From: Streptacidiphilus sp. PB12-B1b
GTDB lineage: Bacteria > Actinomycetota > Actinomycetes > Streptomycetales > Streptomycetaceae
DNA: 64,000 bases
Direction: 5' to 3'
NCBI RefSeq assembly: GCF_014084125.1
Contig: NZ_CP048405.1
Span: 6,076,001 to 6,140,000, forward strand
Both the position numbers and the translations under genes were made by a program. Below the pieces are notes generated by a model. It did not search any database. It saw only the letters and a list, made by a program, of their open reading frames with translations, and was not told the origin of the DNA. This document shows positions 3,988 through 29,946 of this stretch, piece after piece (positions within the stretch are counted from its first letter, which is position 1; each line of letters begins with the position of its first letter).

Positions 3988-4983
3988 TCAGGGGGCAGCC
4001 GGTGCGGAGGGGGTCTCCGCTCCGTCGCCCGGTGCGCCGGAGCCGCCCGGCTGGGCAGGGTGGCTGTCGCCGGTGTCCGGCGCGGTGCTCGGGGTCGGGG
4101 TGGGCGTGCTGCTCGGGGTCGGGTCGGCGCTGCTGCTCGACTGCCCGCCGGTGGCGCCGCCGGATGCCCCACCCGCGTCCGGTGCTGACGGTTCGCCCGA
4201 TCCGCTCGGCCGGTGGGCCGGGGCGGAGGCCGCGCCGGACGGGCCGGTGGCCGGATCGGTACCGCCCGAGCCGCCGGAGCCGCCGGAGCGGTGCACGGTG
4301 CCGCCGAAGGAGGTGCCGCTGCCCGGCTCGTCCTTGACGATGGCGGCCACCGGCTTGCCCGCGACCAGCTCCACCACCGTGACCGTGCCCATGGCCAGGA
4401 CGAACACCAGAACGGCCATCAGCGCGTAGCTCTTGCGGCTCCGGGGCTTCCAGGTGGTGCGGCCCCGGTAGGTGGCGACCGACTCGTCCCCGGCCGGGGG
4501 TGCGACGGCCGCCATCATCCGGGTGTGCTCGCCGCCGGGGTCGAACGGGTCGAACGGCGCGGTCGAACCGGCGGCGGAACCGGCCCGGGCCGGGCCTGCC
4601 ACGGACGGGCCGGTCGGCGGCGGGCCGGTAGGCGTCGGGCCGGTGGCGGTCAGGCCGGTGGCGGACGGTTCACCCTTGAGCTCCTCGAGGTTCAACTGTC
4701 GGCGGCGGCTGCGCGGACGCTGGCTCGGGATCGCGGACGGGGGCGTCGAGGCCAGGTCGCGCAGCTGTTCGCCGGTCCGTCTGAAGGCGTGCTGGAACAG
4801 CGCGCTGCCGGTGGTGGCACCGGCGCTGACCACGGCCGCACCCAGCAGCGTTCCGTAGACGCCGAGTTCGGAGGCGAGCACCGCGCCGGCCACGGCCGCC
4901 AGCGAACTCGCGGCCACCTGTGTGACGCTCAGGTCCAGGGACCGCCGCTTCGGCGGCCGGTCCGAATGATCCAGATCCTCCAT
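3988..4983 (-). CDS. Ser/Pro/Gly-rich single-pass membrane protein
   Basis: This is a 331-residue protein of unknown function. An N-terminal Ala/Gly-rich hydrophobic stretch (residues about 16-55, glycine-zipper-like) precedes a basic Arg-rich linker. A Pro/Thr/Gly low-complexity region follows, then one clear transmembrane helix (ALMAVLVFVLAMGTVTVVEL) and an extracytoplasmic tail of Ser, Gly, Pro and Thr, including PTPSSTPTPTP. The layout suggests a type II membrane protein with a disordered wall-spanning tail. The ATG at 4983 is supported by a GAGGGG ribosome site; the ATG at 5013 is less likely. It is divergent from sepH across about 530 bp. The same neighbour is found beside sepH in other streptomycetes as far as I recall. 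Confidence 0.75.
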   Translation of the reverse strand: MEDLDHSDRPPKRRSLDLSVTQVAASSLAAVAGAVLASELGVYGTLLGAAVVSAGATTGSALFQHAFRRTGEQLRDLASTPPSAIPSQRPRSRRRQLNLEELKGEPSATGLTATGPTPTGPPPTGPSVAGPARAGSAAGSTAPFDPFDPGGEHTRMMAAVAPPAGDESVATYRGRTTWKPRSRKSYALMAVLVFVLAMGTVTVVELVAGKPVAAIVKDEPGSGTSFGGTVHRSGGSGGSGGTDPATGPSGAASAPAHRPSGSGEPSAPDAGGASGGATGGQSSSSADPTPSSTPTPTPSTAPDTGDSHPAQPGGSGAPGDGAETPSAPAAP

Positions 4984-21992: not shown

Positions 21993-22826
21993 ATGACCGG
22001 CAAGCCGCAGGATTCGTTGTTGCCGATATCGGACGAGACGGTCGAACCCGACCTGCGCTTCGATCCCGACGTCGCCAGCCCCGCCCGGATGTACGACTAC
22101 TACCTGGGCGGGAAGGACAACTACGCGGCGGACCGGGCGGTCGCCGACACCATGATCGCCACGCACCCGGTGGTGCTGGCCGGGGCCCGGGGGAACCGCC
22201 GGTTCATGGTGCGCGCGGTGGAGGCGCTGGCCCAGGCCGGGGTGCGGCAGTTCATCGACATCGGCGCGGGCATCCCCACCTCGCCCAACACCCACGAGGT
22301 CGCCCAGCGGTCCCACCCGGGCGCGAGAGTGGTCTACGTCGACAACGACCCGGTCGTCCTGGCCCACACCCGGGCGCTGCGGTCCGCGCCCGGGGTGGTG
22401 GCCATCGAGGGCGACGTGCGCGAGCCGGAGGCCATCCTGGCCGATCCGCAGCTCACCGACCACATCGACTTCTCCCAGCCGGTCGGCCTGCTGCTGGTGG
22501 CGGTGCTGCACTTCATCCGGCACGACGAGTACCCGGAGGAGCTGGTCGACCGGCTGGTCCGGCCGCTCGTGCCCGGCAGCCACCTGGTGGTCTCCAGCGG
22601 CTCCTCCGAGGGCCACAGCCCGGAGGCGGTGGCCCGGTTCGAGGCCACCTACCAGAAGTCCAGCTCGCCGCTGGTGCTGCACTCCCGCGCCGACGTGGCC
22701 CGCTGGCTGAGCGGCTTCGAACTGCTCGACCCGGGCATCACCTCCATCTTCAAGTGGCGTGCGGACGAGGAGATCCCGGGCGACCTCAGCTGGCTGGGCG
22801 CGGCAGGCCGCCTGCCGCAGCGCTGA
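21993..22826 (+). CDS. DUF574 SAM-dependent methyltransferase
   Basis: This 277-residue protein belongs to the S-adenosylmethionine-dependent methyltransferase family PF04672 (DUF574), which is greatly expanded in Streptomyces. Motifs are SPARMYDYYLGGKDNYAADR near the start, FIDIGAGIPTSPNTHE (SAM-binding loop), VVYVDNDPVVLAH and DFSQPVGLLLVAVLHFI. The ATG at 21993 has a GGGGCGGGG ribosome site; the open frame upstream is not used. Its 3' end overlaps the end of the convergent radical SAM gene by 41 bp. The substrate is unknown. Confidence 0.9.
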   Translation: MTGKPQDSLLPISDETVEPDLRFDPDVASPARMYDYYLGGKDNYAADRAVADTMIATHPVVLAGARGNRRFMVRAVEALAQAGVRQFIDIGAGIPTSPNTHEVAQRSHPGARVVYVDNDPVVLAHTRALRSAPGVVAIEGDVREPEAILADPQLTDHIDFSQPVGLLLVAVLHFIRHDEYPEELVDRLVRPLVPGSHLVVSSGSSEGHSPEAVARFEATYQKSSSPLVLHSRADVARWLSGFELLDPGITSIFKWRADEEIPGDLSWLGAAGRLPQR

Positions 22827-23700
22827 CCACCGGCAGGCCGCCCGGCCGCCGCTCCGGCCACGCCTGCGGTATCCGCTCCAGCACCCCGCCCGCGAAGACG
22901 TCGTACAGCGGCAGCGACTCCAGGTGCACATAGCCGATGTGGCAGTCGCACACCGCCAGCGGGCACGGCCGGGGGCGCAGCGCCGCGCGGTAGCTGCCGT
23001 CGTACAGGTTGCCGAGGGGCTCCTTGACGAAGTGACAGCGGCGCACCGTGCCCTCGCCGTCCACGGAGACGACGGACTCGCCGGTGCGGCACGGGCGGCC
23101 CGCGCTGGCGTGCGGGCGGCGGCTGTAGTCGAACAGCGGATCGAGCGCGGTCCACTGCTCGGCCTCGGCGTCGGTGTAGCCGCGCCCCTCCTGCGCGTTG
23201 ATCCACAGGTAGACGTGGTCCGGCAGCGCCGCCCTCATCCGCCGGGCCGCCTCCAGGTGCTGCGGGTCGCCGACCACGCCGACGCTGTAGCGGACCGCGC
23301 GGGCGTCCAGCTCGCGGCACTTGCCGAGGAACCGGTCGTGGCCGACCTGGCCGGGGTGGTAGGTGGTCCACAGCGCCAGCGTGCGCGGGTCGGCGTGCTC
23401 GACCCAGGCGGTCCGGTGACTCAGATTGGTCTGCACGGCCACCCGCTTGACGTGCGGGAGCCTGCTCAGCTCCGCCAGCGTCCGCCGGTACCAGGAGCGG
23501 GTCAGGCCCTCGCCCCAAGGGGTGAACAGCAGTGAGAGCCGGTCGCCGTGCCGGTCGGCGGCCCAGCCGGCGAAGCGCGCCAGCGCCTCCCGGTCGGCGG
23601 TGAGCTGCTCCCGGCTGTCGCGGCGCTTGGCGAAGGGGCAGTACGGGCAGTCGTAGTCGCAGGAGGCGAGCGGACCCCGGTAGAGGATGGTCAGATCCAT
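22786..23700 (-). CDS. STM4011 family radical SAM protein
   Basis: This 304-residue radical SAM enzyme is the last gene of a five-gene leftward operon. The SAM-cluster motif is CX3CX2C (Cys14, Cys18, Cys21; CDYDCPYC). After the partial barrel, Cys204, Cys222, Cys246, Cys251 and Cys253, with FVKEPLGNLYDGS between, resemble a SPASM/twitch-type auxiliary-cluster region. Such regions are common in enzymes that modify peptides or proteins. The gene starts 10 bases after the STM4012-family stop. No function is established for the family. The family name comes from its Salmonella member. The auxiliary cluster is my inference from Cys spacing. Confidence 0.85.
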   Translation of the reverse strand: MDLTILYRGPLASCDYDCPYCPFAKRRDSREQLTADREALARFAGWAADRHGDRLSLLFTPWGEGLTRSWYRRTLAELSRLPHVKRVAVQTNLSHRTAWVEHADPRTLALWTTYHPGQVGHDRFLGKCRELDARAVRYSVGVVGDPQHLEAARRMRAALPDHVYLWINAQEGRGYTDAEAEQWTALDPLFDYSRRPHASAGRPCRTGESVVSVDGEGTVRRCHFVKEPLGNLYDGSYRAALRPRPCPLAVCDCHIGYVHLESLPLYDVFAGGVLERIPQAWPERRPGGLPVVSAAAGGLPRPAS

Positions 23701-23710
23701 GGCCGCGCGC

Positions 23711-25189
23711 TCACCTGGCCTGGTAGGCGGCCATGGCGGTGGCGGCCCGGGAGGAGAAGAACGCGGGCCCCACCGCGTCGGAGTGCGCCAGCCCCTCGGG
23801 CGTCAGCCGCAGCCGCCCGGGCACGGTCACCGCGTCGTCCAGCCAGCCGAGGTCGTGCAGGCGCTCCAGCTCGGCGGCGAAGTCCTCGGCCGCCGAGGTG
23901 CCGAAGCGCTCCCGGTAGCCGGCGGTGTCCAGGCCCTCGTTCTGCAGCAGCGACTGGATCAGGTGTCGCCGCCGGGCCTCCTGCGCGTCCATGGCCCAAC
24001 CGACCTCGGCCCGGTCGAAGTCCTCGGCGGGGCGGGCGACGTAGTCGTCGACGATGCCGCGGATCTCGGTCATGGAGACCGCGTAGTCGAAGGAGTAGTG
24101 CAGGGCGTGGGTGTAGGAGCGGGCGCCGCAGCCCAGGCCGATCATGCCGTCGGTCTGGCAGCAGTACTCGGTGCCCCCGGCCTGCGGCGAGGCGGCGCGC
24201 CGGAACATCCGCATGGACACCTGCTCGTAGCCGGCGGCCAGCAGCTGGTCGCGGCCGCTGCGGTAGAGGGCGAGCCGCCGGGCGTCCCACTCCGGATCGG
24301 CGGCGGCCGGTCCGTCAGCGGTCGGTGCGTCAGCGGTCGGTGCGGCCGTGGCGGACTCCCGTGCGGCGTCGGCTTGTTCGCGCCGGGCCAGACCGGTCAG
24401 CGGGCGGACGTAGAGCGGGTAGAGGTACAGCTCCTCCGGCTCCCAGGCGAGCGCGGCGTCCAGCGAGTAGCGCCAACTGGCCTCGGTCTGGCCGTCGATG
24501 CCGTAGATCAGGTCGAGGTTGAGCACCGGTATCCGGGCGTCGCGGACCAGGCCGATGGCGGTCTCGACGTCCGCCCGGCGCTGCGGACGCACGGCGGCCC
24601 GGGCCTCGTGCTCCACGAAGCTCTGCACGCCCAGGCTGAGCCGGGTGGTCCCGCGTTCGGCCAGCACCGCCATCCGGTCCCTGGTGCTGGTGGACGGGGA
24701 CGCCTCGACCGACAGCGGAATGGCCCGCAGGTCGGCGCCCATCCGGGTCTCGACGATGTCGCAGAGGCGCTCCAGCTCGGCGGCGGTGAGGAAGGTGGGC
24801 GTACCGCCGCCGAACGCGGCCTGCGCGAACCGCGCCTCCGCGCCGACCGCCGCGGCCACCCGGGCGGCCTGCCGGTCGAGCGCGTCCAGGTAGGCGGTGG
24901 TCAGGCCGTCCGGGGCGCCGATGCGGGTGAACAGGTTGCAGAAACCGCAGCGCACCTCGCAGAAGGGGATGTGCGCGTAGAACGACAGCGCCTGCTTGGG
25001 CTCCTGCGCCCACAGCTCGGCCAGGCGCGGCCGGGGCTGCAGCGGGCGGTACGCCGTCTTGTGCGGATAGGCGTAGACGTAGCTCTGGTAGGGGCTCCGG
25101 TACGGCTCGGCGGCCGGGCCCGGTCCGGTACCGATGCCGGTGTCGGGGCCGTCGGCCGGGGACAGGGCGGCGGTGCTCATGGCGCTCAT
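23711..25189 (-). CDS. STM4012 family radical SAM protein (HemN-like)
   Basis: This is a 492-residue radical SAM protein resembling oxygen-independent coproporphyrinogen oxidase (HemN/HemW). CX3CX2C is at Cys77, Cys81 and Cys84 (FCEVRCGFCNLF). HemN-like segments FGGGTPTFLTAAELERL, RLSLGVQSF and NLDLIYGIDGQTEASW follow. The C-terminal part (about 390-492) matches a HemN winged-helix-like domain. The ATG at 25189 overlaps the preceding stop codon in the classic ATGA arrangement. Simple heme synthesis is unlikely because the gene is locked in the STM4011-4015 set; the substrate is unknown. A poorly conserved stretch around residues 285-315 has an imperfect repeat (ADAPTADGPAA). Confidence 0.87.
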   Translation of the reverse strand: MSAMSTAALSPADGPDTGIGTGPGPAAEPYRSPYQSYVYAYPHKTAYRPLQPRPRLAELWAQEPKQALSFYAHIPFCEVRCGFCNLFTRIGAPDGLTTAYLDALDRQAARVAAAVGAEARFAQAAFGGGTPTFLTAAELERLCDIVETRMGADLRAIPLSVEASPSTSTRDRMAVLAERGTTRLSLGVQSFVEHEARAAVRPQRRADVETAIGLVRDARIPVLNLDLIYGIDGQTEASWRYSLDAALAWEPEELYLYPLYVRPLTGLARREQADAARESATAAPTADAPTADGPAAADPEWDARRLALYRSGRDQLLAAGYEQVSMRMFRRAASPQAGGTEYCCQTDGMIGLGCGARSYTHALHYSFDYAVSMTEIRGIVDDYVARPAEDFDRAEVGWAMDAQEARRRHLIQSLLQNEGLDTAGYRERFGTSAAEDFAAELERLHDLGWLDDAVTVPGRLRLTPEGLAHSDAVGPAFFSSRAATAMAAYQAR

Positions 25190-26076
25190 GCGGGACCTTC
25201 TTCGGCGGCGGGCAGCGTGAACTGCGCGTAGGGGACGGTCCAGACGACCTCGTGGCCGATGCGGTGCCCGGTGTAGCCGTCCTCGCCGTAGGCCGTGCCG
25301 TGGTCGGCGCAGACGACGGCGAAGCACGGACGCCTGCGCCGCATCACCGCGAACAGCCGCGGCAGGTGCCGGTCGACGTACTCCAGCGCGGCCGCGTGCG
25401 ACGCCCGGTCGTCCCCGTGCTCGCGGGTGGCGCCGGGCAGGTGGAACCAGTTCGGCTGGTGCAGCGCCGAGACGTTGAGGAAGAGGAACAGCGGCTGTCC
25501 GGCGGGCTGCTCGGCGCAGACCTGCTCGGCCACCGCCACCTGCGCTTCGAACGACGTCGGCGAGGTGACGCCCAGCTCCGGTGCCCAGTGGCTCTCCTGG
25601 AACAGGCCGGGCAGCACGGACCCGAGCGGGCCCTGCTTGTTGAAGAAGCCGACGCCGCCGACGCAGACCGTGCGGTAGCCGACGGCGGCCAGCCCGGAGA
25701 CCAGGTCGGGGGTGTCGTAGACGAAGGTGGTCCCCGCCGTGCTCTCGCTGCCCGCGAAGCTCGCTGCGAACAGCCGTGGGTGCGGGCCGCCTGGCTCGGC
25801 CGGGGTCGGCAGGAATCCGGCGAGGATCGCCTGGTGGGCGGCGTAGGTGAAGCTGCCGGGGGTGTGCCGCCGCTCCCAGCGGCCCCCGGGCAGGACGGCG
25901 GCCAGGTTCGGCGTCCGTCCGGCCTCGGCCAGCTCGACGGCGACGTCGTAGCGCAGGGTGTCCAGGGTGACCATGAGGATGTCGTGGGTGCCGACGATCG
26001 ACCGCATGTCGGGCGCGGCCGGGGTCGTTGCGGGCGGGGTCGTTGCGGGCGGGGTCGTTGCGGGCGGGATGTTCAC
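25186..26076 (-). CDS. STM4013/SEN3800 family sulfatase-fold hydrolase
   Basis: This 296-residue member of the alkaline phosphatase/sulfatase superfamily is fused to a short low-complexity N-terminus made of three PPATT repeats. The fold begins at about residue 30 with DILMVTLDTLRYD (metal Asp39). HTPGSFTYAAHQAILAG probably holds the nucleophilic Thr or Ser. CADHGTAYGEDGYTGHRIGHE supplies the other metal ligands. The GTG at 26076 is chosen; the ATG at 26007 would remove the repeats and is also possible. Its stop codon overlaps the STM4012-family start. It has no signal peptide, so it presumably acts in the cytoplasm with its operon partners. Confidence 0.85.
   Translation of the reverse strand: MNIPPATTPPATTPPATTPAAPDMRSIVGTHDILMVTLDTLRYDVAVELAEAGRTPNLAAVLPGGRWERRHTPGSFTYAAHQAILAGFLPTPAEPGGPHPRLFAASFAGSESTAGTTFVYDTPDLVSGLAAVGYRTVCVGGVGFFNKQGPLGSVLPGLFQESHWAPELGVTSPTSFEAQVAVAEQVCAEQPAGQPLFLFLNVSALHQPNWFHLPGATREHGDDRASHAAALEYVDRHLPRLFAVMRRRRPCFAVVCADHGTAYGEDGYTGHRIGHEVVWTVPYAQFTLPAAEEGPA
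26020..26066. repeat. 15-bp tandem repeat, three copies
   Basis: GTCGTTGCGGGCGGG is repeated three times without change in the 5' coding part of the STM4013-family gene, encoding PPATT units. Copy number may vary between strains. Confidence 0.75.
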
Positions 26077-26098
26077 AGGTGCGGTCCTTCGGCTGCGC

Positions 26099-27238
26099 TC
26101 AGGCGGCTTTTGCTCGGAGTGCGGCGGCGACGAACGCCGCGTAGGTGTCCTGGCCCTCGGCGGCGGAGCCGGGAAGGCCGGTGAGGCGGGGCAGCAGGTC
26201 GCCGAAGGCGTTGACCTCGCCCACGGCGTGGCGTTGCCAGCCGATGCCGGGGAGCACGTCCACGCCCACGGTGGGGCTGTTCGGGAAGCACCGCGCCGCC
26301 GCCTCGCTGGTGTCGAGGAGGCTCCGCCAGTGCGGGCCGGCGGCTGCGCGGACCAGGTCGAGATCGCCGCGCGCCCCGCCCAGGTGCAGGTTGGTCATCG
26401 GGTGCCGACTGGTGCGCAGCACGGCATGGGTGGCCCGCCCGGCGGTGACCACCACCCGCAGGTCGGCGGGCCGACCGTGCTGGGTGGCCTTGGGGAGCCA
26501 GCGTTCCACGTGCAGCGGCTCGCGGGCGAGGGCGTCGAACAGCGCGCGCAGCTGCGGCTCCTCGGTGTAGCTGCGCACCCGCAGCGAGTTGAACAGCTGC
26601 ACCGCACCGCCGTCGGAGCGCGTCGGCTCCACGGAGGTGGTGGCGCGGGCCCGGCCGTCCGGGCCGAGTTCCAGCGCCACCACGCCCGAGCCGGACGAGC
26701 CGTGGGCGGGCTTCACGAAGACCCGCCGCATCCCGGCGTCCGCCAGCCGGGTCCGCAGGTCCTCCCAACCGGACAGGGCCTCCCTCCCCTGGTCGAGCGC
26801 GGCGGGCACGGGCACGCCCGCCGCGCCGAGCAGCGCGTGCGCGCGCCGCTTGTCGAACATGACGGCGATCTCCTCGGCCTCCCCGAGCAGGGTGCACCCC
26901 GGGGTGGTCGCGGCGGCTGCGGCGAGGGCCCGCAGCGCGGAGGTGAAGCGGCGGTACCACGGCGCTCCGCCCTCGACCCGGGCCGGGTTCCAGCCCGCGC
27001 CGAGCTCCGGACCGCGCAGCAGCCGGTCGACCTCGTCGTCCTCGCCCGGCGAGTCGATCCGCAGCAGCGTGCCCTCTGCCAGGGCCACGTCACCGCGCAG
27101 CACGGCCTGCCAGGCCAGGACGGCAGGGTCGGGGCAGCCGGCCCGGCGCACGGCCGCGCGGAACAGCTCGACGCGTCGACTGCCGGGGTTGCCGACCACG
27201 GTGAAGTGCGTTTCGCCGGGCGGGCGTTGGGCGTGCAC
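26099..27238 (-). CDS. STM4014 family ATP-grasp protein
   Basis: This is a 379-residue ATP-grasp-like protein, second in the STM4015-4011 operon. Near the N-terminus are FTVVGNPGSRRVELF and WQAVLRGD. The ATP-grasp core includes MFDKRRAHALLGAAGVPVP, RRVFVKPAHGSSGSGVVAL, DLRVVVTAGRATHAVLR and GVDVLPGI...EVNAFGDLL. ATP-grasp ligases activate a carboxylate as acyl phosphate and join it to an amine or other nucleophile. The GTG at 27238 lies 8 bases after the upstream stop codon; a GTG at 27199 is an alternative. The much longer open frame upstream runs antiparallel to nothing real: it is the STM4015 gene read in another frame. Confidence 0.83.
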   Translation of the reverse strand: MHAQRPPGETHFTVVGNPGSRRVELFRAAVRRAGCPDPAVLAWQAVLRGDVALAEGTLLRIDSPGEDDEVDRLLRGPELGAGWNPARVEGGAPWYRRFTSALRALAAAAATTPGCTLLGEAEEIAVMFDKRRAHALLGAAGVPVPAALDQGREALSGWEDLRTRLADAGMRRVFVKPAHGSSGSGVVALELGPDGRARATTSVEPTRSDGGAVQLFNSLRVRSYTEEPQLRALFDALAREPLHVERWLPKATQHGRPADLRVVVTAGRATHAVLRTSRHPMTNLHLGGARGDLDLVRAAAGPHWRSLLDTSEAAARCFPNSPTVGVDVLPGIGWQRHAVGEVNAFGDLLPRLTGLPGSAAEGQDTYAAFVAAALRAKAA

Positions 27239-27246
27239 GACGGCGC

Positions 27247-28191
27247 CTATTCGGCGACGGCGACGTAGTGCCACAACTCGCCGTTGTAGTCCTGCGGCTT
27301 CTCCTGCTCGCTGAGGTCGACGTCGACCCCGGCCGGTTCCAGGGCCTGCCGCAGCCGCTCGACCATCCCGTCGCTCAGGAAGTGGTGGTGCAGGTCGAGC
27401 CGCTTGAGGTGGGTGAGCGGCTGGCCCGACAGCAGGGCCTCGGCCCCGGCGTCGGTGAGCACGCCCATGGACAGGGCCAGCGTCTCCAGCGCGGGCACCA
27501 CCGGGGCGTGGGCGACGGCCTCGGCGATGGCGTCCTCGATATCGCTGTCCTGCAACCCGAGGTGGCGCAGCCGCGGGAAGCGGACCCCGGAGAGCAGCGG
27601 GGCCAGGTCGGCGACGGTGGTGTCGGCCCCGTACTCCTCGGCGCCCAGCCACAGCTCCAGGCGCTCCAGGGCGGGCAGTTCGCTGTCGGATATGCCGCGC
27701 ACCACCGCCGCCGACATGCCGCCGGACTCCAGCCGCAGGGTGCGCAGCGACGCGTGCCGCACCGGCGTGAACTCCCGGTGACCGCCGCGGGCACCGAGCA
27801 CCTCCAGCTCGGGGTAGGCCACCAGCAGTGGTGCCAGGTCGGTCTGTTCGATCCAGGAGATCTCGTTCTCCTCCGAGATGAGGTCCGCCAGGAAGAACGC
27901 CTTGAGGGCCGGGAAGCGGTCCTTGAGGTCGATCACGCGCTGCAGTTCGGGGCCGAGGCTGTCCTCGTACAGGTCCTCGCCCCAGGCGCCGAGCACCAGC
28001 GCGGTGACCCTGGTGGTGTCCACATGGGCCAGGAACCGCTCCCAGATCTGCCCGATGCCGTCGTCGGAGTTCCAGTCGTAGCGGATCCGCCAGGCGACCT
28101 CGTCCGGGGCCGGCAGGTCGTCCGGGATGATGACCGAGGGCAGGTCGTACACCGGCAGCCCGTTCAGCTCGGTCAGGTGTTGTGCGTACAT
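27247..28191 (-). CDS. STM4015 family leucine-rich repeat protein
   Basis: This 314-residue protein opens the five-gene STM4011-4015 operon. The N-terminal part (YAQHLTELNGLPVYDLP) leads into a leucine-rich-repeat-like series, visible as LPALERLELWLG, FPRLRHLGLQDSDIED, PALETLALSMGVLTDAGAE and LTHLKRLDLHHHFLSDG. It ends in a short non-repeat tail, GELWHYVAVAE, which I recall being conserved in the family. The ATG at 28191 is supported by GAGGGAG; the frame open to 28251 lacks such a site. LRR proteins usually bind protein partners, so it may be scaffold, receptor or substrate for the enzymes behind it. Confidence 0.85.
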   Translation of the reverse strand: MYAQHLTELNGLPVYDLPSVIIPDDLPAPDEVAWRIRYDWNSDDGIGQIWERFLAHVDTTRVTALVLGAWGEDLYEDSLGPELQRVIDLKDRFPALKAFFLADLISEENEISWIEQTDLAPLLVAYPELEVLGARGGHREFTPVRHASLRTLRLESGGMSAAVVRGISDSELPALERLELWLGAEEYGADTTVADLAPLLSGVRFPRLRHLGLQDSDIEDAIAEAVAHAPVVPALETLALSMGVLTDAGAEALLSGQPLTHLKRLDLHHHFLSDGMVERLRQALEPAGVDVDLSEQEKPQDYNGELWHYVAVAE

Positions 28192-28377
28192 GGCGGCGGC
28201 TCCCTCGCATGGTCGGACAGTGGCCCTGTTCCTATCAGGTGTGACTGACATCGCGGTTTCAGGGGCCTGGCGAAGGGGAGTCGGGGGCGGCCGCGCGGCC
28301 GGTTGTCAGTGGCGCCTCGTAGTGTCCGGGACATGGAGCCGACGGACCCTCAGCGGGCCGTAGCGGAAGGGGAAGCC

Positions 28378-28704
28378 ATGTTCCGACAGGGAGACGTACT
28401 CCTGGTTCCGATCGCGGAGGGGGCGGTGCCGCCGCTGGTGCACGCCCTCCCCCAGCAGGCGCGGGACGGCCGCGGTCGGCTCGTGCTGGCCCGGGGCGAG
28501 GCGACCGGGCACACGCACGCCGTGGTCGGCCCCGGTTCGCTGGCACGCGAGTCGGACGAGTTCGGCCAGGCGTGGCTGCACCTGGCCGAGGGCGGCCGGG
28601 TGGTGCACGAGGAGCACGCGGCGATAGCGCTGGCCCGGGGCTGGTACCGGATCGTCAGGCAGCGCGAGTACACCCCGGGAAGCCTCCGCGTCGTCGCGGA
28701 CTGA
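28378..28704 (+). CDS. Small conserved protein upstream of DUF6745 gene
   Basis: This is a 108-residue protein of unknown function. It starts MFRQGDVLLVPI, has a central LARGEATGHTHAV motif with two His, and ends in a beta-rich HAAIALARGWYRIVRQREYTPGS segment. The pattern suggests a small beta-barrel with a possible metal- or nucleotide-binding His pair, which is inference. The ATG at 28378 has AAGGGGAA six bases upstream; earlier in-frame starts lack a site. It is followed after 48 bp by a DUF6745 gene with a very strong ribosome site, so the two form an operon. I recall similar proteins next to DUF6745 genes elsewhere. Confidence 0.75.
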   Translation: MFRQGDVLLVPIAEGAVPPLVHALPQQARDGRGRLVLARGEATGHTHAVVGPGSLARESDEFGQAWLHLAEGGRVVHEEHAAIALARGWYRIVRQREYTPGSLRVVAD

Positions 28705-28752: not shown

Positions 28753-29946
28753 ATGAGCGGTTCGACCTCTACCCACACGGGCACCGACTGGCGGGCCGTG
28801 GCGCTGCGCACCGGGCCCGCCGACCGGGCCGCCGCAGAGGCCGGTGTGCGCGCCGCCTACCGCTCGGCGGGGCTGGCCGAGCCCTGCACGGTGGTCTGGT
28901 TCGACTCACCGCTGCAGGCGACGGCCGCCGCGCTGCTGCTGACCGGAGCCGACGCCGTCGTCCGCGAGGCCGTCGTCCGCGACCCGGCGACAGGCGCACC
29001 GGCCGACAGTGCCGACACCGGAGCCGGAGCCGACGCCGAGCGGGTGCTGGCCGAGGCGGCACGCATCCTCGCCGGGCACGGCGTCGCCGCCGAGCCGGGC
29101 GCTGCGGGCGGCAGCGTCCGCGAGGCCCTGCGCACCGCCCCGTGGGAGGCCGCGCGCCGCCGCAGCCTGACCGCCCTGGGGCCGACCGACTGGTCCGAGC
29201 ACTGGTCCCGGACCGGCGGCGAGCTCTGGCTCCGCATCAGCGATCTGACCCAGCGCATACGCGGCGCGGTGGCCGACCGCCTGGGCGGCCCGGACGATCC
29301 GACCCGACCGGTCGGCCCGGCCCGCTCGGCCGTGCGCCTGGCCATGCTGGACGCGCTCTGCGGTCAGCACGACGCCGCCTGGCTGTCCGCCCTGGCCGAG
29401 GCCCCCGAACTGGACGGCCTGGCCCGCACGGCCGCCGCCGCGGGCTGGTGGTGGCCCTACCGCGATGTGGTCCTGCTGACGGAGCGTCCGATCGCCCTGC
29501 ACCAGGACGAACCGGGCCGACTGCACTGCGCCGACGGCCCCGCGCTGGCCTTCCCGGACGGCTTCGCCCTGCACGCCTGGCGGGGCATGCCGGTCCCGGC
29601 GGGCTTCCTGGACCGCCTGGCCGCGCTGACCGCAGCCGACATCCGCACCGAGGCCAATGCGGAGCTGCGCCGGGTCATGCTCGAGTACTACGGCTACGAG
29701 CGCTACCTCGCCGAGTCCGGCGCCACCCCGGTCCACCGGGACGAGACCGGCGTGCTGTGGCGGATAGAACTGCCCGGGGACGAGGCAGTGGTGACGGTCG
29801 AGGTGGTCAACTCCACTCCGGAGCCGGACGGCAGCCACCGGGTCTACTGGCTCCGGGTGCCGCCGCGCACCCGCACCGCCCGCGAGGGCGTCGCCTGGAC
29901 CTTCGGCCTCACCGCCGAGGAGTACCAGCCCGCGCTCCAGACCTGA
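28753..29946 (+). CDS. DUF6745 domain protein
   Basis: This is a 397-residue cytoplasmic protein of unknown function. The first 220 residues are Ala-rich and helical. The C-terminal DUF6745 region (about 230-397) begins at WWWPYRDVVLLTERPIAL and includes HCADGPALAFPDGFALHAWRG, IRTEANAELRRVMLEYYGYERYL, the segment TPVHRDETGVLWRIEL and a WLRVPPRTRTAREGVAWTF end. The tight Tyr/Trp/Arg conservation suggests a nucleic-acid or nucleotide role, but none is established. Perfect AGGAG lies seven bases before the ATG. It is paired with the small MFRQGDV protein and sits head-to-head with the STM4015 operon. Confidence 0.82.
   Translation: MSGSTSTHTGTDWRAVALRTGPADRAAAEAGVRAAYRSAGLAEPCTVVWFDSPLQATAAALLLTGADAVVREAVVRDPATGAPADSADTGAGADAERVLAEAARILAGHGVAAEPGAAGGSVREALRTAPWEAARRRSLTALGPTDWSEHWSRTGGELWLRISDLTQRIRGAVADRLGGPDDPTRPVGPARSAVRLAMLDALCGQHDAAWLSALAEAPELDGLARTAAAAGWWWPYRDVVLLTERPIALHQDEPGRLHCADGPALAFPDGFALHAWRGMPVPAGFLDRLAALTAADIRTEANAELRRVMLEYYGYERYLAESGATPVHRDETGVLWRIELPGDEAVVTVEVVNSTPEPDGSHRVYWLRVPPRTRTAREGVAWTFGLTAEEYQPALQT

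Follow-up and report, generated by a model that had tools for sequence, protein, structure and literature searches.

A near-invariant terminal glutamate in the STM4015 leucine-rich-repeat protein points to a possible carrier role within a five-gene operon of Streptacidiphilus

The window analysed here, a stretch of 64,000 nucleotides from Streptacidiphilus sp. PB12-B1b (NZ_CP048405.1, positions 6,076,001 to 6,140,000), holds the genes STM4015, STM4014, STM4013, STM4012 and STM4011 as one leftward operon at positions 22786-28191, all on the minus strand. The operon is real and coherent, and the main new finding is that the leucine-rich-repeat (LRR) protein STM4015 ends in a near-invariant glutamate, found as the exact last residue in 217 of 222 distinct copies. 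With a probability of roughly 0.53, STM4015 is a covalent carrier or substrate that is loaded at this terminal Glu by the ATP-grasp ligase STM4014, after which the other enzymes of the operon act. The five families have names without an assigned role. Within the window's family they occur in 58 of 121 sampled genomes, and beyond it they reach about ten phyla and include a set on a Salmonella plasmid. If the terminal Glu is the loading site, the operon can be tested with one purified protein pair and mass spectrometry, and the protein-tethered pathways (LysW-type, pearlins) would gain a form with an LRR carrier and radical S-adenosylmethionine (SAM) chemistry.

Layout of the operon and co-occurrence of its families

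The genes of the operon and the conserved tail are located in the window as follows:

27247..28191 (-): STM4015 family leucine-rich-repeat protein, 314 aa (amino acids); NF038076, 375 bits against a cut-off of 275; proposed covalent carrier or substrate
27250..27270 (-): C-terminal tail of STM4015, HYVAVAE; last Glu codon 27250-27252; proposed modification site
26099..27238 (-): STM4014 family ATP-grasp ligase, 379 aa; NF038074, 414 bits against a cut-off of 175
25186..26076 (-): STM4013/SEN3800 family alkaline-phosphatase-superfamily hydrolase, 296 aa; NF038075, 422 bits against a cut-off of 250
23711..25189 (-): STM4012 family HemN-like radical SAM enzyme, 492 aa; NF006067, 630 bits against a cut-off of 380
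22786..23700 (-): STM4011 family radical SAM enzyme, 304 aa; NF038073, 409 bits against a cut-off of 200

The intergenic gaps are 8, 22 and 10 bp, and STM4013 and STM4012 share one ATGA overlap. This spacing, the leftward direction and the five family names had all been given in the initial annotation, and they hold: each of the five proteins scores above the curated NCBIfam cut-off of its STM401x family. Pfam assigned general folds only (Radical_SAM and HemN_C, Sulfatase, ATP-grasp below cut-off and a weak LRR match) and gave no match for STM4011 at E 0.001. No promoter or terminator was found in a scan of positions 28100-28500.

Co-occurrence of the families was followed in 121 genomes of the window's family, the genome lists being compared by eye. 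STM4014 is present in 58 of these genomes, STM4012 exceeds its cut-off in the same 58, and STM4011 is found in the same 58 as well, 57 of them over the cut-off and one (G129) with the protein in pieces below it; a further genome, G133, has a sub-cut-off match to STM4012. STM4013 exceeds its cut-off in 67 genomes, with its main clade in the same 58; of these, 57 score more than 400 bits, and in G129 the protein is again in pieces. STM4015 occurs in 61 genomes, namely the 58 and three (G124, G140 and G179) with orphan copies that lack the other four genes. That the families are independent of one another is rejected, since the same 58 genomes carry STM4014, STM4011 and over-cut-off STM4012. The initial annotation had proposed one dedicated pathway and had named independent occurrence of the families as the observation that would speak against it; the strict co-occurrence in 58 of 121 genomes supports the proposal. 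It had also regarded the reaction of the five families as unassigned. No study on the function of STM4011-STM4015 was found in the open-access literature, to which the search was confined; STM4013 and STM4015 are named in tables of two published papers.

For a wider sample, GTDB species genomes were scanned with STM4012 as the anchor, at least 568 relatives were confirmed, and 80 loci were kept. All five families were present in 66 of the 80 loci and the strict one-strand order 4015(n)-4014-4013-4012-4011 in 60 of them, so the arrangement of the operon is not due to chance. Its distribution is patchy, because STM4013 exceeded its cut-off in only 3 of 119 genomes of a phylum-wide sample, all three belonging to the window's family.

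The carboxyl end of STM4015 and its proposed ligase

The 222 STM4015 copies score at least 100 bits; copies with identical last 80 residues were counted once, and open reading frames (ORFs) that had no stop within the locus were excluded. Lowering the threshold to 60 bits gave a terminal Glu in 223 of 231 copies, and clustering of the family at 70 % identity gave 147 of 151. Glu was also last in all of 11 aligned STM4015 proteins from six phyla, and it was among the 17 invariant columns of 34 diverse sequences. The consensus of the tail is R-[YF]-[VI]-A-V-[SAG]-E, with 2.2-4.1 bits at positions -1 to -7, 1.3 bits at position -8 and at most 1.5 bits at positions -9 to -30, where an acidic bias is seen near the end. 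The protein thus appears to end in a variable, acidic, flexible linker that is followed by a conserved tail. Within this tail only the Glu is nearly invariant; at position -2, about half of the copies have S or T and about 43 % have A or G. In the same count no fixed last residue was found for STM4011-STM4014, STM4012 often ending in R (22 of 39 clusters).

When the window genome was scanned with the tail pattern, part of the possible codons being covered, seven places matched and only STM4015 looked, by eye, like a real gene end. Within the codons covered by the pattern, a tail common to many proteins of this genome is therefore rejected: two of the other matches have no stop, three lie in frames of 19-73 codons, and one lies in a 487-codon frame judged by eye to be noncoding.

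The conserved body of STM4015 is an LRR domain of about 290 aa, and the window protein contains no Cys. A solved relative is available (2ra8, E 2.5e-41), of which the 362-residue construct matches the family up to residue 354; the eight residues beyond it resemble a tag added at the C-terminus, which would mask the terminal site. Two to six STM4015 matches were present in 36 of the 80 loci, L104 having a tandem array of six and L105 one of five. Genes split into two ORFs, such as that of L154, enter this count as two matches. In L104 and L105 a gene resembling an ECF sigma factor (by eye) and a putative partner gene lie between STM4013 and STM4012 (L104:11545-13244, L105:10056-11731), hinting at a dedicated regulation in the five- and six-copy genomes. 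A Myxococcus-type STM4015 (L131:19186-20553) carries an N-terminal WGR domain according to Pfam, and the Bacteroides copy (L113) has by eye a similar N-terminal extension. A Calothrix plasmid (L114:2014-3288) encodes an orphan STM4015-like protein that ends in VAE.

STM4014 is predicted to have a LysX/ArgX-type ATP-grasp fold with conserved residues of the catalytic type. Its profile matched LysX (1uc8, 1uc9, 3vpd) and RimK first in the PDB. An AlphaFold model made from 27 sequences had a pLDDT (predicted local distance difference test) of 91.8; Foldseek placed the ArgX-LysW complex 3vpb first among its neighbours and also returned the LysX-LysW-gamma-AAA complex 5k2m, LysX 3vpd and RimK 5zct, while the best eight structures in VIA-align were all RimK, LysX or ArgX (Z 24.3-23.5, root-mean-square deviation 2.6-2.9, 263-275 residues). 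D327 and N343 were conserved in 34 of 34 sequences and E341 in 33 of 34. Likeness of fold alone shows no function. RimK, which glutamylates ribosomal protein S6 at its C-terminus, is among the top structural neighbours of the STM4014 model (270-275 residues), but the partner here is a dedicated LRR protein, and the window STM4014 scores 26.1 bits against NCBIfam rimK_fam, below the cut-off of 143.4.

Another parallel is offered by the amino-group carriers. The C-terminal Glu of LysW is the residue to which LysX and ArgX couple an amino acid (PMC10433800, PMC9303977). LysX joins the amine to the gamma-carboxyl of this residue, Glu54, and the carrier terminates in the motif EDWGE; a haloarchaeal carrier with the E54A mutation makes its host an arginine auxotroph (PMC10433800). 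Such carriers also serve the formation of vazabitide A and s56-p1 (PMC9303977). In the LysW-LysX/ArgX systems, as in that of Vzb22 (vazabitide A), the carrier ends in Glu, an ATP-grasp ligase of the same fold lies alongside, and enzymes would act on the tethered group, as is proposed here. As a carrier, STM4015 would work like LysW without being a member of that group. It is an LRR protein without the zinc cysteines and without EDWGE (0 of 222 copies), and STM4014 is without GSWGR (0 of 34 sequences), so that recognition would differ from that between LysX and LysW; the further enzymes are radical SAM and alkaline-phosphatase-superfamily proteins, unlike the LysZ/Y/J/K set.

The genes of the ligase and its proposed acceptor stay together. 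STM4015 adjoins STM4014 on the same strand in 67 of the 69 loci that hold both. Ten of the 80 loci had no STM4014 in the stretch; nine of these genomes (all except that of L171) were searched whole, and eight have STM4014 elsewhere, the exception being the Cytophagales genome of L127, which has no STM4014 and of which the STM4015 itself is broken. Seven of the 80 loci had no STM4015 in the stretch, and in all seven it was found elsewhere in the genome. In 11 genomes examined STM4014 lies apart from the 4013-4012-4011 block, and it adjoins an STM4015 in 11 of 11, in L169 across a contig break: the 4014-4015 unit is on the opposite strand in L128, L131, L138, L194 and L195, both genes are together at another place in L140 and L142, and in L154, L156, L169 and L193 (three Actinoplanes and one Sinosporangium) STM4014 is elsewhere and the 4013-4012-4011 block has its own STM4015. 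A displaced STM4011 in Hyella has an STM4015 directly upstream. The pairing of STM4014 with STM4015 is thus constant, that of STM4015 with the 4013-4012-4011 block frequent but not constant.

This pattern is as expected if STM4014 acts on STM4015 first, and it would also fit a protein that gathers the enzymes. LRR domains usually bind proteins, and STM4015 might be a scaffold or regulator of which the tail is a docking or stability signal, STM4014 to STM4011 then making a small molecule without any attachment to STM4015. Such a role would explain the presence of STM4015 beside displaced modules and the Glu end of the orphan copies. An exact terminal Glu next to a ligase of the C-terminal-Glu class is better explained by chemistry at the chain end, and the scaffold is considered improbable, at a little under one chance in five.

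The remaining enzymes, the proposed pathway and its alternatives

STM4012 aligns along nearly all of HemN (1olt, E 6e-56 in a profile match), the oxygen-independent coproporphyrinogen III oxidase, and with part of the class C methylase NocN. Its score against TIGR00538 (HemN) is 139 bits, with a cut-off of 325, and it remains below the cut-offs of the HemN, HemW, HutW and HemZ models that it touched; a role as coproporphyrinogen oxidase is rejected on these NCBIfam cut-offs. In STM4011, C14, C18 and C21 (CxxxCxxC) and five further cysteines (C204, C222, C246, C251 and C253) are present in 33 of 33 sequences, and the five additional ones give it a SPASM/Twitch-like appearance; the Deinococcus protein scores 17.6 bits against Pfam SPASM, below the cut-off of 21.5. 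The best PDB profile match was SkfB (E 0.006, C-terminal part), beyond which no clear sequence relative was found in the PDB. The model of STM4011 (pLDDT 87.7) came closest to BlsE (Z 16.2) and SkfB (Z 15.5) at 12-19 % identity, followed by SuiB, MoaA, DesII, viperin-like enzymes, EpeE and anSME. BlsE and SkfB are the best folds for this model, but STM4011 belongs to a different sequence family (NF038073).

STM4013 matched sulfatases and nucleotide pyrophosphatases in the PDB, the best match being an arylsulfatase. Residues of the metal-site type (D16, D235, H236 and H248) are each conserved in 35 of 35 sequences. Formylglycine sulfatases have the signature C/S-x-P-x-R; in STM4013 Thr54 and His58 (35 of 35 each; placed by eye) replace the formylglycine Cys/Ser and the Arg, and a sulfatase is rejected because the active-site signature, judged by eye, is missing. 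Of the earlier description as a sulfatase-fold hydrolase the fold stands, while the signature residue is replaced by an invariant Thr. The annotated start of STM4013 at 26076 precedes the family homology, which begins at residue 24, and a 15-bp in-frame tandem repeat (3.6 copies, window 26015-26068) encodes a Pro-Ala-Thr-Thr-Pro-rich N-terminal extension. As this repeat stands before the homology, the true start could be 26007, and the gap to STM4014 would then be 91 bp. A sulfatase-like hydrolase about 28 % identical to STM4013 is found on Agrobacterium Ti plasmids (10 records; L217:6118-6864), and no other operon gene was annotated in the one Ti-plasmid region read around it.

HAD phosphatases touch the operon in 13 of 93 loci, as detected with five HAD queries, and none was detected in the others, the window included. 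Myxococcus-like loci carry the HAD-IA type, relatives of which occur in Aureispira and in one Planctomycetales genome. The Cof type is seen in Salmonella and, with a weaker match, in two Nocardiopsis, where it follows STM4011; the Bacteroides STM4011 is fused to a HAD-like domain (by eye). This separate recruitment of phosphatases suggests a phosphate ester in the pathway.

On the carrier reading, STM4014 would activate a carboxylate of the C-terminal Glu of STM4015 and join to it an amine, either an amino acid or an amine-bearing metabolite. The SPASM-like STM4011 and the HemN-like STM4012 would then modify the tethered group or the adjoining tail, and STM4013, with Thr as its nucleophile, would cleave or transfer a phosphoester or phosphodiester in the same pathway, to which a HAD phosphatase has been added in several lineages. 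The LRR domain would be the docking body, and the acidic linker would let the tail reach each active site. The co-occurrence, the conserved tail, the fold classes, the conserved residues of the catalytic type and the constant pairing of STM4014 with STM4015 are observed; covalent attachment, the amine concerned, the sequence of the steps and the release are inferred. The initial annotation had considered a protein or peptide as the possible substrate; this is supported and can be sharpened, in that the likely acceptor is the C-terminus of a protein encoded in the operon itself. Its dedicated pathway is supported, and STM4015 as the proposed carrier or substrate, its multiple copies, the HAD phosphatases and the pair of accessory genes described below were absent from it. 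A more specific version, put at somewhat under one chance in three, makes the LRR protein a reusable covalent carrier with LysX-like loading at its Glu; a small molecule derived from a phosphate or a nucleotide would be assembled on it by the radical SAM enzymes and trimmed by STM4013 and the HAD enzyme, in a carrier-protein pathway found across about ten phyla.

Building on the C-terminus of a carrier with the aid of a radical SAM enzyme is also known from the pearlins 3-thiaglutamate and 3-thiahomoleucine, which are made on a ribosomal carrier peptide, a radical SAM enzyme taking part in one of the pathways. The loader there is a PEARL, whereas here it would be an ATP-grasp enzyme. PEARL loading is tRNA-dependent.

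The same tail can be read as the core of a ribosomally synthesized and post-translationally modified peptide (RiPP). STM4015 would then be an oversized precursor with the LRR domain as leader and R-Y-[VI]-A-V-[SAG]-E as core, the radical SAM enzymes modifying tail residues (e.g. the Tyr or the Glu side chain), STM4014 extending or cyclising the peptide and a protease freeing it. Seven conserved residues after a variable linker and multiple copies of the precursor gene fit this picture, as do the resemblance of STM4011 to the RiPP maturases SkfB and SuiB and the presence of the graspetide ligase PsnB among the Foldseek matches of STM4014. The neighbour survey (41 labels, one locus per label, ORFs of at least 110 codons within 7 kb, 25 clusters listed) leaves room for an exporter: four related Actinomycetota have an ORF for a DHA2-type MFS transporter no more than 281 bp from the mapped genes, in Paenibacillus the distance is 1.8 kb, and 8 of the 41 labels have an ABC-transporter ATPase at least 1.6 kb away. 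A conserved LRR body of some 290 aa, and a tail in which the Glu alone is nearly invariant, argue against this reading. A graspetide core contains a constant Thr, Ser or Lys as ring nucleophile; no such constant residue occurs in the last 30 residues of STM4015, the S or T at -2 being limited to about half of the copies. No protease or peptidase was recognised among the 25 clusters listed. A RiPP-like peptide is accordingly rated as rather unlikely, at about one chance in five.

The terminal Glu, a ligase beside it and several STM4015 copies in many loci also recall Pup, which is joined to lysines of other proteins. STM4014 would in that case attach the C-terminal Glu of STM4015 to lysines elsewhere. 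A tag of this kind leaves the two radical SAM enzymes and the phospho-hydrolase unexplained and has no protease partner among the clusters listed; it is very improbable.

Several observations weigh against STM4015 as a carrier loaded at its terminal Glu. The five copies without this residue include one with four extra residues (L149), one ending in D (L195) and a remote paralog (L207); rows departing from the family before the end (L182, profile positions 6-265) or representing the first half of a broken gene (L250) were kept in the count. A terminal Glu is kept even by the orphan copies of G140, G179 and G124, whose genomes lack the enzymes, with an unusual -2 residue in two of them. Conservation of a protein's end may also reflect docking or a degron. 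The two motifs EDWGE and GSWGR are absent, as given above. In the structural comparison glutathione synthetase (Z 22.0) and, below it, other ATP-grasp enzymes follow RimK, LysX and ArgX by a small margin. Seven of the 11 split genomes (the Myxococcus-type L128, L131, L138, L140, L142 and L195, and L194) lacked a separate STM4015 at the 4013-4012-4011 block within the stretch read, no STM4015 was seen within about 1.5 kb of a displaced STM4011 in Scytonematopsis (L239), and a Calothrix chromosome (L157) has STM4015-like, STM4014, STM4013 and STM4012 genes with no match to STM4011. A peptidase for release is missing from the 25 clusters listed.

Neighbouring genes, spread and a second STM4013 cluster

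Two genes lie divergent from the operon in the window and are probable accessories:

28378..28704 (+): 108-aa 'RQGDVLL' protein; start inferred
28753..29946 (+): DUF6745 protein (PF20530), 354 bits

This pair was found in 47 of the 80 wide loci. Many Actinomycetota, Chloroflexota and Deinococcus have it behind STM4011 in convergent orientation, and in Methylobacterium it precedes STM4015 in line with the operon. DUF6745 is associated with the operon but dispensable, since it was counted by eye in 50 of the 58 operon-bearing genomes of the family and in 5 of the 63 others. Residues 2-108 of the 108-aa protein matched no Pfam or NCBIfam family; it contains the motifs GE-TGH-H and HEEH and is possibly a metal-binding protein. 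Its last residue is D in all 14 clusters, and that of DUF6745 is T in 35 of 36; the terminal D may belong to a conserved C-terminal strand, as conservation continues upstream. Among the clusters listed in the neighbour survey, only the HAD phosphatase lay inside the operon; the others were transporters and further common genes, synteny within a lineage, or artefacts of reading frame.

The 80 loci span Actinomycetota, Chloroflexota, Myxococcota, Bacteroidota, Cyanobacteriota, Planctomycetota, Acidobacteriota, Deinococcota and Pseudomonadota, which with a Paenibacillus plasmid makes about ten phyla, the phylum names being taken in part from general knowledge of the record titles. Named plasmids with the operon were found in Deinococcus, Paenibacillus, Salmonella, Methylobacterium and Streptomyces. 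A Bacteroides plasmid holds an incomplete set (STM4015, STM4014, STM4011 and part of STM4013) in which no STM4012 was seen. Megablast, which detects about 85 % identity or more, gave no match of the Salmonella operon DNA in the E. coli collection. Viral spread of the operon is rejected, as the window STM4014 protein found no relative in one scan of viral contigs, which covers close relatives. The locus L138, from a record titled Comamonas sp. KCTC 72670, has the gene order of the Myxococcus loci, and its name may be wrong.

A lower-scoring STM4013 group was present in the family sample; 16 of its loci were fetched and 13 displayed, nine of which show another gene cluster. This second cluster of Streptomyces (L089, L091-L095, L097, L098 and L102; L116:6860-10309) combines an STM4013-like hydrolase and a NUDIX hydrolase with a radical SAM protein resembling MoaA, a protein resembling thymidylate kinase and one of 159 aa. 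Some of its genes are truncated by gene calling, and the hydrolase in L116 is 47 % identical to the window STM4013. The composition of this cluster hints at nucleotide-derived chemistry.

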